In this document: piece by piece, positions 26,708-32,223 of the stretch
Numbering within the stretch: the first letter of the stretch is position 1
Layout: each line of letters begins with the position of its first letter
NCBI GenBank assembly: GCA_021847435.1
Contig: JAJZRC010000007.1
Span: 1-32,223 of the forward strand
Origin: a bacterium
GTDB lineage: Bacteria; Patescibacteriota; Doudnabacteria; UBA920
Direction: 5' to 3'
DNA length: 32,223 bases
Program-made: the position numbers and the translations under genes
The notes under the pieces: model-generated
The model's input: only the letters and a program-made list of their open reading frames with translations
Database searches by the model: none
Told to the model about the DNA's origin: nothing

Positions 26708-27105
26708 GGGGATGACGGATTTTGACAGGACTTTGACATTTTCCAATACGCAAGACGAGCCAGCCTATAGACTCGATAATCCTTCAGGCACTCGATAAAT
26801 GCTATCGAAAACTCTTGGAACAAAGTAGTAGCCGCGTTTTCTAACGCCTACGCCTTCGCTCCTGTTGCGGCCTAATAAGGAAGCAACACTTGCCCCTAAG
26901 CGCTCCCTCGCTTAGGATAAGCAAGCTTATTTAGGGATGCGGCACAGCGTTTAATTTAGGCGCTGCGGCCAAAGGCTTTCTAAATTAACTTTAGCGATAC
27001 AGGCGCCTGTTACTGTCGCTGATTTTACTAAAATAGGCTAATCTTGTGAACAATTGGGAAGTTGAAAAGTTTTGGACCCGGGTTTAACTCCCGGCATCTC
27101 CACCA
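26708..27105 (+). ncRNA. ssrA: Transfer-messenger RNA (tmRNA)
   Basis: About 398 nt. The 5' end GGGGATG pairs with CATCTCC before A-CCA at 27102-27105, forming the alanyl acceptor stem. A T-arm (GGGTTTAACTCCC-type) lies just before it. GACGGATTTTGACAGG near the 5' end is typical of tmRNA. The tag frame begins at GCC (26831), after TAGTA, and reads AAFSNAYAFAPVAA, then TAA TAA (26873-26878). The P-V-A-A ending fits the protease-recognised tag ends. Pseudoknot arms such as CGCTCCCTCGC follow. It rescues stalled ribosomes with SmpB, encoded at 21817-22248. Confidence 0.96.
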
Positions 27106-28134: not shown

Positions 28135-28386
28135 ATGTCAGAACAGGAACGGCTTGCTTTCCTGTCTTCCACAGACTTGCTTTCCATTGTCGAGGCGGCA
28201 AAATTAACGCCTTACTCGGCTGATTATTTAAGTCTTTTGGCTAGGCAAGGCAGACTTCCGGCAATTAAAATCGCGCGTAACTGGCTTACTACCCGTAAGG
28301 CGATTTTTTCATATTTGCAGGAGCAGCAAGTTAATCACCAGCGCATTACAACAGAGTTGCGACAAATGCAGAAAGGAGTTATGTGA
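28135..28386 (+). CDS. Helix-turn-helix (excisionase/MerR-like) DNA-binding protein
   Basis: An 83-residue protein. The central part, L-S-I-V-E-A-A-K-L-T-P-Y-S-A-D-Y-L then G-R-L-P-A-I-K-I-A-R-N-W, is the winged HTH pattern of excisionase/MerR-like proteins, followed by T-T-R-K-A-I-F-S-Y-L-Q-E. It ends in a Gln-rich helix. Its TGA stop overlaps the GTG start of the giant fibre gene (GTGA), so the two are translationally coupled. It probably regulates its own operon or the surface fibre, with the structured leader upstream. Alternatively it was left behind by a mobile element. Confidence 0.8.
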   Translation: MSEQERLAFLSSTDLLSIVEAAKLTPYSADYLSLLARQGRLPAIKIARNWLTTRKAIFSYLQEQQVNHQRITTELRQMQKGVM

Positions 28387-31300
28387 AAATAAAGCTCCTG
28401 CTTAAAGTCCTTGCCATTGCCATAATCGCTACGGAAGGAATATTAATTTCTAACTTTGTCCATTTACAGCCAAAGGAATTTTTGGCCAATGCCGCAAGTA
28501 AAGTCCGCTTGCCTAAAGCCGCCTTCTCCGCCTTTGGCGAAACTAAAGATTATTTTTCCCGCTTCTCTTCCCAAACCAACCGGGCTATTTTACAATTGGG
28601 GCTGGATATTCAAAACGACGTTCAAGCAATAAAAGACTTCGCCTCGCATTTCGAATCGGAGACCGGTAAGATTTACGCTAAAACCAAGGCAGGCATAAGC
28701 CGAGACGCTCAAGCAGTGGCCTCGCTTGCCAAAGGTATTGGAGGCCAAATAAAACATTTTGCCATAAATTTTTGGACAGATGTAAAAGCTCCTTACCTCG
28801 CGGCGGCGGATGTTGCGGGGCCGGAGTTAACCAGGCAAAAAAATCAGTTGGCGTGGGCGGCCGGCAGTGCCGGTAATGAATGGAAAAATTTTGTCGTGTT
28901 CTACAAATCCGGCTTGGGGAATTTTACAAAGATACAAAAAAATTCTTTAGCGGAACAAGTTAGTCTTTCAAAACAGCTCGCGTCCAACGCGTGGAATGGT
29001 TTAGAGTCTAATGTCGGCTTACTGGATAAATTGGCAAGGAATGATTTTGACAATAAAAAAGCCGCCTCTTTCGAGGCGGCTTTGGGATCTCAGTCGGTGA
29101 CTGAAAGCTCCGCTTTGACATCTAATAAAAGTATATCAGATGCCAGAAATTTGTCAAGTGGTGGACCTGAGGGGAATCGAACCCCCGAGACTCCGATGTC
29201 AAAGCGGAGCTCGCCACCTGACCAGGCCCACCAGGCTTCATTATATCACAACGAGCCGCGTGTCTTAGGCGAAACCATTTCAGCTGTCGATCCAAATTAT
29301 ATAAACCAACTTATTGACTCAAGGCTCAATCAGTATTTAACTGAAGGAAAATTTAAAGGACAAAAAGGCGACAAGGGAGAAAGCGGATTTTTCCCCGGTT
29401 TTAGCGGCCCCAACGGCATGGTCAATAATGACTACGGCAAGACAACAAGTGTAATTGGCGGCACGCCAATTACCAGCTACATCCCTTCCACTCAGTCCAA
29501 TGGTAATTCCGGCGGCTCCCTTGCGGGAGTTACCTATTTGTCTTCTAAGGGTTTTACTGCCGACACCGCCAAAGTAAACGAAACCCTTAATGTCACTGGC
29601 GCCGCTACTTTAGCATCTGCATTATCTGTAAGCGGCAACACAACCATCTCCGGCACGTTCTCGGCCGCTACATCCACGCTATCATCGCTTACTGTTTCCG
29701 GCTCTGTAAATTTAACCGGTTCCACCACCATCGCCGGCTTAACCGTTACCGGCCTTAACCCGGGCCTAACAGCGGGCAGCGTGGTTTTCCAAGGCGCGAG
29801 CGGTTTGGCTGAAGATAACAGTAATTTTTATTGGGATGATACAAACAACCGTTTAGGATTAGGCACAACCACGCCGGCACAATTATTAACCGTTGTCGGA
29901 AACGCGTTTATTACGGGCAATGTTAACCTCGCTACTCTCACATCTTCTTCTTTGATTATGTCAGATAGCGGTAAAAATCTTTCCTCTGTAATATTAGGTT
30001 CCGGACTTTCCTTTAATGGCAATACTTTAAATACCACCCAAACCATGGGAGCGTGGACAGTTGGCAATGGCCTTATTTATAACGCTACTTCCACAGACTT
30101 AATTGGCATCGGCACAACTTCTCCTTCTGCCACCCTGTTTGTTCAAGGCAAAGGTGGGGTTAATCCTTTTGCCATAGCTTCTTCTAGTGGTTCGACGTTG
30201 CTCACACTTACTCAAGCGGGCAACGTCGGCATCGGGACGACGAGTCCAAATAACCTAATTCAAGTTTATGATTTAGTATCTTTCTCAAATGTTGATTCGA
30301 AAACTCTCGTTGGTTATCAGGCTGGTAAGTATGATTTAGGTCAACTTAATACATACATAGGTTATCAAGCGGGTTCCGCCAATAACTCTACCGGTAAGAC
30401 TGCTACCGCTGATTCTAATACTGGTGTAGGCTGGCGTTCTCTATACTCAAATACTACTGGATACTTTAATACTGCTGTAGGCTACGGTTCACTTTCTAAT
30501 AATACTTCTGGTTATGAGAATACGGCTTTAGGTCTTTATACTCTTTATTCTAACAGCGATGGTTTTAGAAATTCCGCCACAGGTTATGGAGCTCTTTATT
30601 ACAATACTTCTGGAGACGATAATACCGCTGTTGGTCATGAGGCAGGAAGATTTCTTGCAAACGGTGCATCTCCCAATCAAACCAGTGGAACCAGTGTGTA
30701 CCTAGGCAGATCTACCAAAGCTTATGCTGACGGGGGCGCTAATGAAATTGTTATTGGATATAATGCCATTGGTGCAGGTTCAAACACTGTAGTATTGGGA
30801 AATGATAGTATTGATAAAACGATACTAAAGGGCAGCGTCGGCATTGGGACGAGTACGGTGGCTGCGAGATTAGTCGTGCAAGGTTCGGGGTCTGATATTT
30901 TCTCCGCGTTTGATTCAACGGGAAATGGAAAAATGGTAATTACAAATCAAGGCAACGTCGGGATTGGGACGACGAGTCCCGCTTACACTTTGGACGTCAA
31001 TGGCAATTTAAGAGCCGGCACTTCGCTGAGTGTTGGGATAAATATAGAAACGTTGTCTGCCAACAAAACTCTGACTTCAGGTGTTGATAAAATGTATCAG
31101 TGGCTAAGCGGACTAGCGTACAGAACAATTACTTTAGCCACATCCACAGCCAGGAGCGGAGACAGGTTTGTAATTAGATACAACGATGTTTCTGGTAGTG
31201 CCTTTTATCTTCAAATTTATCAAGGAACAACCGTGTTGGATTATATTTACAGTCAATCAACGCGCGAATATATTTTTGATGGAACGAACTGGGTATCTGG

Positions 31301-32223
31301 AAATGTTGGTACAAGTATAAGTACTGATCGGAATGTGTCCATGGGTTACTCTGCTAATAGTTATAACAGTGGAACCGCGATAGGATATAACGCCAACGCG
31401 TATGACTATGGAACCGCGATAGGATACTCTGCATGGGGTCCTAGTAGTGGAGTTGCCGTCGGAAGTAGCGCGAATGGCAACACTTCCGGAGCGGCTGTAG
31501 GCTATTCTGCTTCCGGTTATAATTATGGCACCGCAGTTGGATATGGTACAAATGGTGTTTCTTACGGAGCGGCTGTTGGATCCTATACAAATGGCAGTTC
31601 TTACGGAGCGGCTGTGGGCTTTTCTGCTTCTGGTTATAATTATGGCGCAGCTGTGGGAAATTATGCTAAGGGCATGAGATATGGTGCGGCACTCGGATAT
31701 TATGCGGGGAATAGTATTGATACCGGTGCGGATAGATATAATACGGTAATAGGCGCTTATTCGGGGTATAGAATAAATACAGGTCTCGGTAATACTATGC
31801 TGGGTTATGGTTCCGGTTATGATGCAACCTATTCCCCCACAACCGGCTCTTACAACATTCTGCTTGGCTACAACGCTTGGACGCCGGCTACTACCACATC
31901 CAATTTTTTGAATATCGGCGGTTTAATTTTTGGCACTAACTTATCCACTACTACCAATGCGATTTCTTCTGGCAACGTCGGCATCGGGACGACGGGGCCA
32001 GTAAATAGATTACATATTGTGGCTGAGGCGAATGGAGGGGGGGTGTCGCTCCAAGGAAATACAAATGTCGCCCCCGCTTATAATTTGCGCAATACTGCGG
32101 GAGATATGAAGGGTTTGTTTGGTATGTCAACGAATGCTGGTGATTGGGTATCGGGGGCTATTGCTGACGATATTGTTGTTCGTTCTAATGGCGGCAATAT
32201 TTTGTTTAGTGCTGACAGAGATC
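28383..32223 (+). CDS. Giant fibre-like surface protein (partial, runs off the window)
   Basis: A GTG-start frame open for at least 1280 codons; AGAAAGGAG lies just upstream. Residues 5-26 are a membrane segment or signal anchor. Residues 30-235 form a helical stalk. A short collagen-like G-Q-K-G-D-K-G-E-S-G segment lies near 325. From about 390 there are beta-helical or trimeric-fibre repeats: V-G-I-G-T-T-S-P-like motifs near 491, 574, 614, 819, 857 and 1197; N-T-A-V-G-Y-G repeats near 640-765; and YadA-head-like G-T-A-I-G-Y-N-A-N repeats near 980-1105. This combination occurs in phage tail fibres with S74 chaperone ends and in trimeric adhesins. Residues about 219-286 are encoded over an antisense tRNA-like gene and sRNA locus. 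Role: probable host or surface attachment. Confidence 0.85.
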   Translation, partial: MKIKLLLKVLAIAIIATEGILISNFVHLQPKEFLANAASKVRLPKAAFSAFGETKDYFSRFSSQTNRAILQLGLDIQNDVQAIKDFASHFESETGKIYAKTKAGISRDAQAVASLAKGIGGQIKHFAINFWTDVKAPYLAAADVAGPELTRQKNQLAWAAGSAGNEWKNFVVFYKSGLGNFTKIQKNSLAEQVSLSKQLASNAWNGLESNVGLLDKLARNDFDNKKAASFEAALGSQSVTESSALTSNKSISDARNLSSGGPEGNRTPETPMSKRSSPPDQAHQASLYHNEPRVLGETISAVDPNYINQLIDSRLNQYLTEGKFKGQKGDKGESGFFPGFSGPNGMVNNDYGKTTSVIGGTPITSYIPSTQSNGNSGGSLAGVTYLSSKGFTADTAKVNETLNVTGAATLASALSVSGNTTISGTFSAATSTLSSLTVSGSVNLTGSTTIAGLTVTGLNPGLTAGSVVFQGASGLAEDNSNFYWDDTNNRLGLGTTTPAQLLTVVGNAFITGNVNLATLTSSSLIMSDSGKNLSSVILGSGLSFNGNTLNTTQTMGAWTVGNGLIYNATSTDLIGIGTTSPSATLFVQGKGGVNPFAIASSSGSTLLTLTQAGNVGIGTTSPNNLIQVYDLVSFSNVDSKTLVGYQAGKYDLGQLNTYIGYQAGSANNSTGKTATADSNTGVGWRSLYSNTTGYFNTAVGYGSLSNNTSGYENTALGLYTLYSNSDGFRNSATGYGALYYNTSGDDNTAVGHEAGRFLANGASPNQTSGTSVYLGRSTKAYADGGANEIVIGYNAIGAGSNTVVLGNDSIDKTILKGSVGIGTSTVAARLVVQGSGSDIFSAFDSTGNGKMVITNQGNVGIGTTSPAYTLDVNGNLRAGTSLSVGINIETLSANKTLTSGVDKMYQWLSGLAYRTITLATSTARSGDRFVIRYNDVSGSAFYLQIYQGTTVLDYIYSQSTREYIFDGTNWVSGNVGTSISTDRNVSMGYSANSYNSGTAIGYNANAYDYGTAIGYSAWGPSSGVAVGSSANGNTSGAAVGYSASGYNYGTAVGYGTNGVSYGAAVGSYTNGSSYGAAVGFSASGYNYGAAVGNYAKGMRYGAALGYYAGNSIDTGADRYNTVIGAYSGYRINTGLGNTMLGYGSGYDATYSPTTGSYNILLGYNAWTPATTTSNFLNIGGLIFGTNLSTTTNAISSGNVGIGTTGPVNRLHIVAEANGGGVSLQGNTNVAPAYNLRNTAGDMKGLFGMSTNAGDWVSGAIADDIVVRSNGGNILFSADRD
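29051..29123 (-). ncRNA. Candidate antisense small RNA to the tRNA-like anticodon arm
   Basis: A minus-strand transcript predicted from about 29122 to 29051, roughly 72 nt. Its first 17 nt (29122 down to 29106) are the exact reverse complement of 29195-29211, the anticodon arm of the tRNA-like gene. Next come a small TCAGTC/GACTGA hairpin with an ACC loop and a strong terminator. It has its own near-consensus promoter. No expression evidence is available. Confidence 0.55.
29054..29083 (-). terminator. Intrinsic terminator of the tRNA-like/sRNA locus
   Basis: On the minus strand AAAGCCGCCTC and GAGGCGGCTTT form an 11-bp stem with a 4-base loop followed by a T-run. On the plus strand only three T follow, so it would not stop the fibre gene. 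Confidence 0.85.
29130..29157 (-). promoter_or_regulatory. Near-consensus promoter for the candidate sRNA
   Basis: On the minus strand TTGACA (29152-29157), 16-base spacer and TATACT (29130-29135). The predicted start, 29122-29123, coincides with the first base of the 17-nt antisense segment. It begins only 2 bases after the encoded CCA of the tRNA-like gene. Confidence 0.7.
29159..29229 (-). tRNA. tRNA-like gene antisense within the fibre gene
   Basis: On the minus strand GGGCCTG pairs with CAGGTCC over 7 bp, followed by A and an encoded CCA. The T-arm is canonical (GGGGG, TTCGATT, CCCCT). The anticodon arm is TCCGC-TTTGACA-TCGGA with one C-T mismatch at the top, or CTCCG/CGGAG with a 9-base loop. 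The D region is 3-5 bases short, and the D stem is poor. The anticodon is ambiguous: GAC (Val, with U33 and A37), UUG (Gln) or UGA (Ser, unlikely with a short variable loop). At 68 nt plus CCA it is short. It is either a divergent tRNA, a pseudo-tRNA or a tRNA-like regulator. The fibre protein frame is open through it. Confidence 0.65.
29240..29248 (-). promoter_or_regulatory. Extended -10 promoter of the tRNA-like gene
   Basis: TGATATAAT on the minus strand, ending 11 bases before the first tRNA base; the predicted start is 29232-29234, just before the mature 5' end. Confidence 0.65.

Follow-up and report, generated by a model that had tools for sequence, protein, structure and literature searches.

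What could a small RNA gene be doing next to a tRNA-like gene when its predicted transcript begins with a perfect antisense copy of that gene's anticodon arm? The locus lies in a stretch of 32,223 nucleotides (the window) taken from a genome of Patescibacteria type, 1.0 Mb in size and 97% complete. We found positions 29106-29122 (AGCTCCGCTTTGACATC) and 29195-29211 (GATGTCAAAGCGGAGCT) to be 17-base reverse complements with no mismatch, as the original prediction had said; by our rough estimate the chance of a perfect 17-mer inverted repeat inside ~100 bases is ~1e-7. The same prediction had placed on the minus strand a TTGACA-N16-TATACT promoter with its start at the first base of the 17-mer, and an 11-bp stem with a T run at the end of the small RNA (sRNA). 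A promoter scan with shuffles gave a predicted +1 at G29122, and the terminator scan returned an 11-pair terminator at 29083-29058; between 29000 and 29300 these were the sole promoter-like and terminator-like sites, while shuffled sequences averaged 0.2 of each. The 17-mer spans the anticodon loop of the upstream tRNA-like gene, as claimed, and also the arm's 5' strand, and every coordinate of the prediction was right. It had overlooked that the complementarity extends past the 17-mer into a mini D arm, and that the module lies antisense inside a plus-strand ORF running from 28383 to beyond 32222. On the minus strand the module reads tRNA-like gene (29229-29159), promoter P2, 17 nt of antisense, a small hairpin and the 11-pair terminator:

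29240-29245, minus strand: -10 element TATAAT of P1, the presumed promoter of the tRNA-like gene, preceded by TGTGA and 10 nt before G1
29159-29229, minus strand: tRNA-like RNA, 71 nt (covariance models R1/R2, constrained fold, likeness to tRNA-Ala(CGC))
29213-29222, minus strand: mini D arm GTC-AGGT-GGC, 3 bp with loop AGGT (constrained folds), GGT being conserved in the loop
29187-29212, minus strand: anticodon-like arm GAG-CTCCG-[CTTTGACAT]-CGGAG-T-CTC (folds and comparison of members)
29130-29157, minus strand: promoter P2, TTGACA-16-TATACT, beginning 1 nt past CCA, 11/12 matches, TG ahead of the second hexamer
29053-29122, minus strand: antisense sRNA, ~70 nt, predicted +1 G29122 (first base of the 17-mer), approximate 3' end in the T run
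29106-29122, minus strand: segment a' (the 17-mer), reverse complement of the anticodon loop plus the arm's 5' strand
29092-29101, minus strand: segment d', GTCACCGACT, pairing with the mini D arm in the predicted duplex with one bulge
29085-29091, minus strand: segment b', GAGATCC, a partial complement of the arm's 3' strand, weak in the window and strong in L157, L092 and L044
29058-29083, minus strand: intrinsic terminator of 11 pairs, end of the sRNA (promoter/terminator scan)
28383-32222 (beyond 32222), plus strand: large surface-type protein ORF, open through the module on the opposite strand

The covariance models R1 and R2 matched 29229-29159 with 95.3 and 79.8 bits, the window sequence being included in both models. 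The 7-bp acceptor (GGGCCTG/CAGGTCC) includes G3:U70; A73 and an encoded CCA come after it, and the T arm is normal. The anticodon-like arm consists of helices of 3 and 5 bp (8 bp in all) separated by a bulged U, and has a 9-nt loop; the canonical 4-bp D stem, 5-bp anticodon stem and 7-nt loop are not found in this RNA. With acceptor and T arm constrained, the predicted fold had an energy of -31.4 kcal/mol. ARAGORN did not call the tRNA-like gene, which was also without a match when Rfam was run on the whole window at the gathering threshold; the only hit was an ordinary tmRNA gene about 2 kb off (26708-27105, plus strand, 114.8 bits), for which ARAGORN likewise made no call. Compared with the tRNA-Ala(CGC) of the same genus, the first 7 nt were identical and 27 of the last 28 nt agreed, so that acceptor and T arm are almost the same, while the D and anticodon arms differ. 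From this near-identity of its ends, the tRNA-like RNA looks like a tRNA-Ala in which the D and anticodon arms have been replaced. The TATAAT of P1 recurs unchanged, also at 10 nt, in loci L021 and L026.

A blastn search of 60 relatives yielded three more cases with the same layout. The two covariance models, run on the family, the order and a sample of the phylum at E <= 1e-7, scored 17 of 380 genomes positive, including two ordinary tRNA-Ala and one doubtful case; given the strict threshold, the prevalence figures are lower bounds. Further members, in Uhrbacteria, WWE3, Parcubacteria and other groups, came from a pattern scan across all GTDB genomes; among the named carriers are Uhrbacteria, Jacksonbacteria, WWE3 and additional Patescibacteria. 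In that single scan, which covered the tandem layout only, no member was found beyond the Patescibacteria, the other matches being ordinary tRNAs or chance. Altogether we gathered 36 tRNA-like/sRNA pairs from distant Patescibacteria, some from fragmented metagenome bins, arranged either in tandem, as in the window, or convergently. The convergent form prevails in the G122 family (12/30 genomes positive), where the sRNA lies on the opposite strand past a bidirectional terminator; most of L299-L308 as well as L159-L161 and L165 are of this form, and in both layouts the cognate antisense sits at the 5' end of the sRNA. A tRNA-like gene without convincing antisense (L015/L162, genome G052) was left out of the counts, as were L309 (no clear antisense word) and L301 (8 nt only) from the pair statistics; the loci L163 and L164 proved to be ordinary tRNA-Ala and were rejected as members. 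Several copies with differing pairings can occur in one genome (three in G013, more than one in G035/L149), and both copies on the L149 contig match their own sRNA best. Second tRNA-like copies on one contig form small arrays (1612-1977 at L149; 582-653 and 1229-1300 at L092). At L068 of the Doudnabacteria, around 1629 on the minus strand, the T-arm/3' half, the promoter and the sRNA are kept while the 5' half of the tRNA-like gene is replaced; this is a probable relic of the module.

The tRNA-type fold was retained across the members. In a covariance-model alignment of 39 tRNA-like sequences, which have a 7/5 acceptor/T-arm architecture, pairing was 99.6% in the acceptor and 100% in the T stem, with numerous two-sided changes, and the covariation score was 0.518 against 0.159 for shuffled sequences. 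The anticodon-arm columns were 53% paired because the position of the bulge differs between members; folded singly, most of these arms (8-10 bp, bulged) close. The stem of the mini D arm varied in sequence with pairing mostly kept. Of the first set, 25/26 members carried the loop motif UYRHCA (TTGACA in the window), and the remaining one had C in first place. The fourth base of this hexamer was A, T or C about equally and never G (0/26), so that in one frame the anticodon cannot be that for alanine.

The identity set of bacterial alanyl-tRNA synthetase (AlaRS) comprises A73, G2-C71, G3.U70, G4-C69 and G20 (PMC9976931). In the alignment, G3:U70 was present in 38/39 and G2-C71 in 39/39, with G4-C69 in only 22/39; in the pair set, A73 occurred in 36/36 and CCA in 35/36. 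The elements of an AlaRS substrate (G3:U70, A73, G2-C71 and CCA) are thus found in the tRNA-like set, and their retention argues for charging of the RNA with alanine. A few members of the G122 family were called as tRNAs with odd anticodons.

If the two RNAs pair, the antisense should change with the arm. The original prediction had set in advance that an arm changing without its antisense would speak against pairing; in the relatives that we compared, the antisense followed wherever the arm changed, and although the arm sequences are widely different between members, each sRNA still fits its own tRNA-like RNA. When predicted duplex energies were calculated among the 36 members, the cognate sRNA ranked first by both row and column in 32/36, whereas the cognates of L159 and L160 came 2nd by row and only 5th by column. 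The summed cognate energy was -1289 kcal/mol, as compared to -592 +/- 30 when permuted (minimum -737 in 20000 permutations); members of one family are not independent, and the cognate effect is still far beyond the permuted range. Over a 15-nt stretch made up of the loop and the arm's 5' strand, in-register pairing in 26 members gave 357/390 pairs, against a mean of 239 (sd 8, maximum 271) for swapped partners. Shared words were mostly 9-19 nt in members, compared with 4-10 nt in control ordinary tRNAs with promoters and at most 9 nt in ordinary tRNAs of other phyla. Among 120 listed phage-contig stretches with a tRNA-like end and a promoter the words were at most 10 nt and nearly all 4-7; these stretches held no member, and we rejected a phage origin. 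A P2-like promoter ended 3-8 nt ahead of the antisense in 26 members, with a comparable P2 in all 26; the sRNA 5' ends are predicted, having been set by eye from the start of complementarity and the promoter, and this placement makes the regularity of the spacing partly circular.

Co-folding, which the original prediction had proposed, gave a predicted window duplex of -46.5 kcal/mol with about 27 pairs, a net gain of -23.8 kcal/mol over the two free structures. The same sRNA reached only -15.5 kcal/mol with the real tRNA-Ala, i.e. no recognition. In most members the sRNA is complementary to the D arm too, and often to the 3' strand of the anticodon-like arm. The complementary segments follow the order a'-d'-(often) b', a permuted rather than plain antisense of the gene, and all three are clear in L157 and L092. 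L159 and L160 (G122, G109) depart from this: their convergent sRNA is complementary to the loop and, in a later stretch, to the 3' end of the acceptor, of which TGGTGGAGCCG in the sRNA is an exact antisense, CCA included. The sRNAs showed no conserved reading frame, and we saw no conservation in them apart from complementarity and the terminator. On this sequence evidence, pairing of the sRNA with the tRNA-like RNA is strongly supported, and it is virtually certain that the two are a covarying RNA pair. The original prediction had also allowed pairing through read-through from the tRNA-like gene; this would be possible in cis for the tandem form only, and from the convergent form it follows that the sRNA has to act as a molecule of its own too.

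The surroundings of the pair were found to be variable. In the window, the module occupies a variable linker of the surface-protein gene, whose ORF encodes repeats and a collagen-like GQKGDKGE stretch; homologs in G002, G004 and G016 keep the flanks and have no module. At the module site, the linker of these homologs is different and shorter. L021 and L026 also lie within ORFs, and most others are intergenic amid unrelated genes. We found no common neighbor genes, and four proteins tested had no Pfam match; the 36 predicted pairs of adjacent RNAs, tandem or convergent, are without a conserved protein neighbor. Absence of tRNA-Ala(CGC) was rejected as a link to the module, as it occurs in module-free genomes too.

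Our best explanation of the whole, to which we give a probability of about 0.5, is silencing by strand invasion: the sRNA would open and inactivate a tRNA mimic able to accept alanine, most probably as an RNA-only toxin-antitoxin-like or self-regulating unit. The first gene would be transcribed into a compact tRNA mimic that keeps what AlaRS and the elbow need (G3:U70, A73, CCA, the T arm and the D-loop GG), its anticodon arm being free to vary, and the second, driven by a strong promoter of its own, would give a short RNA. Contact would begin between the unpaired 5' end of this sRNA and the anticodon-like loop; invasion of the arm's 5' strand and of the mini D arm would follow, with the 3' strand paired as well in many members. 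In the complex, only the acceptor and T arms would stay folded; with the D-loop/T-loop elbow and the anticodon arm lost, the mimic would be switched off and should no longer function as a tRNA. A negative effect of the sRNA on the mimic is probable, and among the blocking, sponging and processing offered by the original prediction we favor blocking; sequence does not separate the three. The effector may act by mistranslation, by sequestration of AlaRS or EF-Tu, or through something beneficial. Since the modules are sporadic, movable and multi-copy with private pairings and no protein partner, a self-limiting or RNA-only toxin-antitoxin-like unit would be the likeliest role; a toxin-antitoxin-like role taken by itself, with a putatively toxic mimic, we propose tentatively and at somewhat under even odds.

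Several other readings were weighed against silencing of a tRNA mimic. The original prediction had named a recent inverted duplication without function as its main alternative, and the exact 17-nt inverted copy in the window sRNA would fit it; covarying copies in distant Patescibacteria and in both layouts exclude it for practical purposes. The mimic might instead be a decoy that titrates an sRNA whose true targets are mRNAs. It is a stable-looking RNA with a perfect target site and adjoins the sRNA gene, but that site stretches over two arms and covaries freely between species and between copies in the same genome, so that any fixed mRNA target would be uncoupled; moreover G3:U70, CCA and the T arm are unneeded for a sponge and yet nearly invariant, and we consider this very improbable. 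It is also rather improbable that the sRNA and the mimic assemble into a two-piece tmRNA-like particle, with the sRNA as a bridge between the two opened arm strands. The alanine identity would be that of tmRNA, and the a'-d'-b' order (L157, L092, L044) would give a four-way junction keeping the acceptor and T arms. Against this, the elbow would vanish, the sRNA lacks both conserved sequence beyond complementarity and terminator and a conserved reading frame, the window genome already has an ordinary tmRNA, and b' is explicable by the sRNA folding as a mirror image. The b' segment could serve complex building instead of destruction of the mimic.

A special form of silencing would be a mistranslating tRNA. 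Because AlaRS ignores the anticodon, a mimic with a loop for another codon would still be charged with alanine, and it would misinsert alanine unless the antisense covered its arm. G3:U70 and A73 throughout agree with this, as do the total arm length of 8-10 bp (about a D stem plus an anticodon stem), the first-set loop UYRHCA, whose fourth base in one frame leaves no alanine anticodon, and L302, L303, L304, L307 and L308, which have canonical 7-nt loops with U33 and A37 for Arg, Ile or Leu codons. However, loops of 8-9 nt or a C at position 33 are found in many members, including the window, the anticodon reading frame is ambiguous, L300 and L309 give AGC (Ala) in that frame, and the loop is equally explicable as a U-turn recognition loop for the antisense; we regard this form as unlikely. 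Similarly doubtful is a phylum-wide RNA-only toxin-antitoxin family in which an Ala-charged mimic with an arbitrary, mostly non-Ala anticodon would corrupt translation, an antisense antitoxin would unfold the D and anticodon arms, and private pairs would diverge fast. The U-turn was rejected as the sole explanation of the loop, fitting most of the first set and failing several members of the G122 family. The loop is conserved more than pairing requires, which may hint at another contact, e.g. with the ribosome.

Silencing of a tRNA mimic raises a testable question: are such mimics safe only while an antisense RNA keeps them open? The module is small, has no protein of its own and occurs in 12/30 genomes of one family, and its window copy was missed by both the tRNA finder and Rfam. 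Such modules supply naturally occurring RNA pairs, each RNA specific to its partner, and offer a molecular handle on hardly culturable organisms. We searched openly licensed papers on tRNA-like RNAs with antisense partners, on RNAs of Patescibacteria and on type VIII systems and found none of this kind, in keeping with the original prediction, which knew of no described family. To our knowledge, there is no RNA dedicated to pairing with a tRNA-type molecule and co-evolving with it. As its antisense target is a tRNA-type molecule, which the described kinds do not cover, the module looks like an RNA pair of a previously undescribed kind.

Among known systems, the tRNA-like domain of tmRNA has alanine identity, a reduced D arm, a T arm, CCA and an extended second helix. 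The mRNA-like domain with its tag frame is missing from the 71-nt RNA; a genuine or permuted tmRNA was rejected, as the Rfam tmRNA model matched only below threshold (13.2 bits vs 47). Pairs of the hok/Sok type resemble the module in having a promoter-driven small antisense RNA and a loop contact followed by extended pairing, the U-turn-like recognition loop being YUNR (PMC6562991), but they target an mRNA, which the module does not. Allo-tRNAs (Mukai et al. 2017) are bacterial tRNAs of odd shape; G3:U70 and anticodons that disagree with the amino acid occur in some of them, and toxin-antitoxin links are suspected for one group (PMC7609411). Their acceptor/T arms are 8/4 or 9/3 and their variable arm is long, whereas the module's tRNA-like RNA is 7/5, lacks a variable arm and has a mini D arm; antisense is not mentioned in that review (PMC7609411). 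The nearest class appears to be type VIII toxin-antitoxin, in which an RNA toxin and an RNA antitoxin are encoded on the same or opposite strands (PMC10767807), and the module would count within it if shown to be a toxin-antitoxin pair. SdsR/RyeA and CreT/CreA are two adjacent small RNAs acting RNA against RNA, as the two predicted RNAs of the module would be, and cognate recognition of the SdsR/RyeA kind was found computationally for 32/36 members both ways. CreT toxins act on the translation system by tRNA sequestration, and CreA represses CreT by guiding Cascade, the CRISPR effector (PMC9458426). SdsR and RyeA differ from the module in overlapping on opposite strands, and what sets the module apart from type VIII systems is that its presumed effector is itself of tRNA type with alanine identity.
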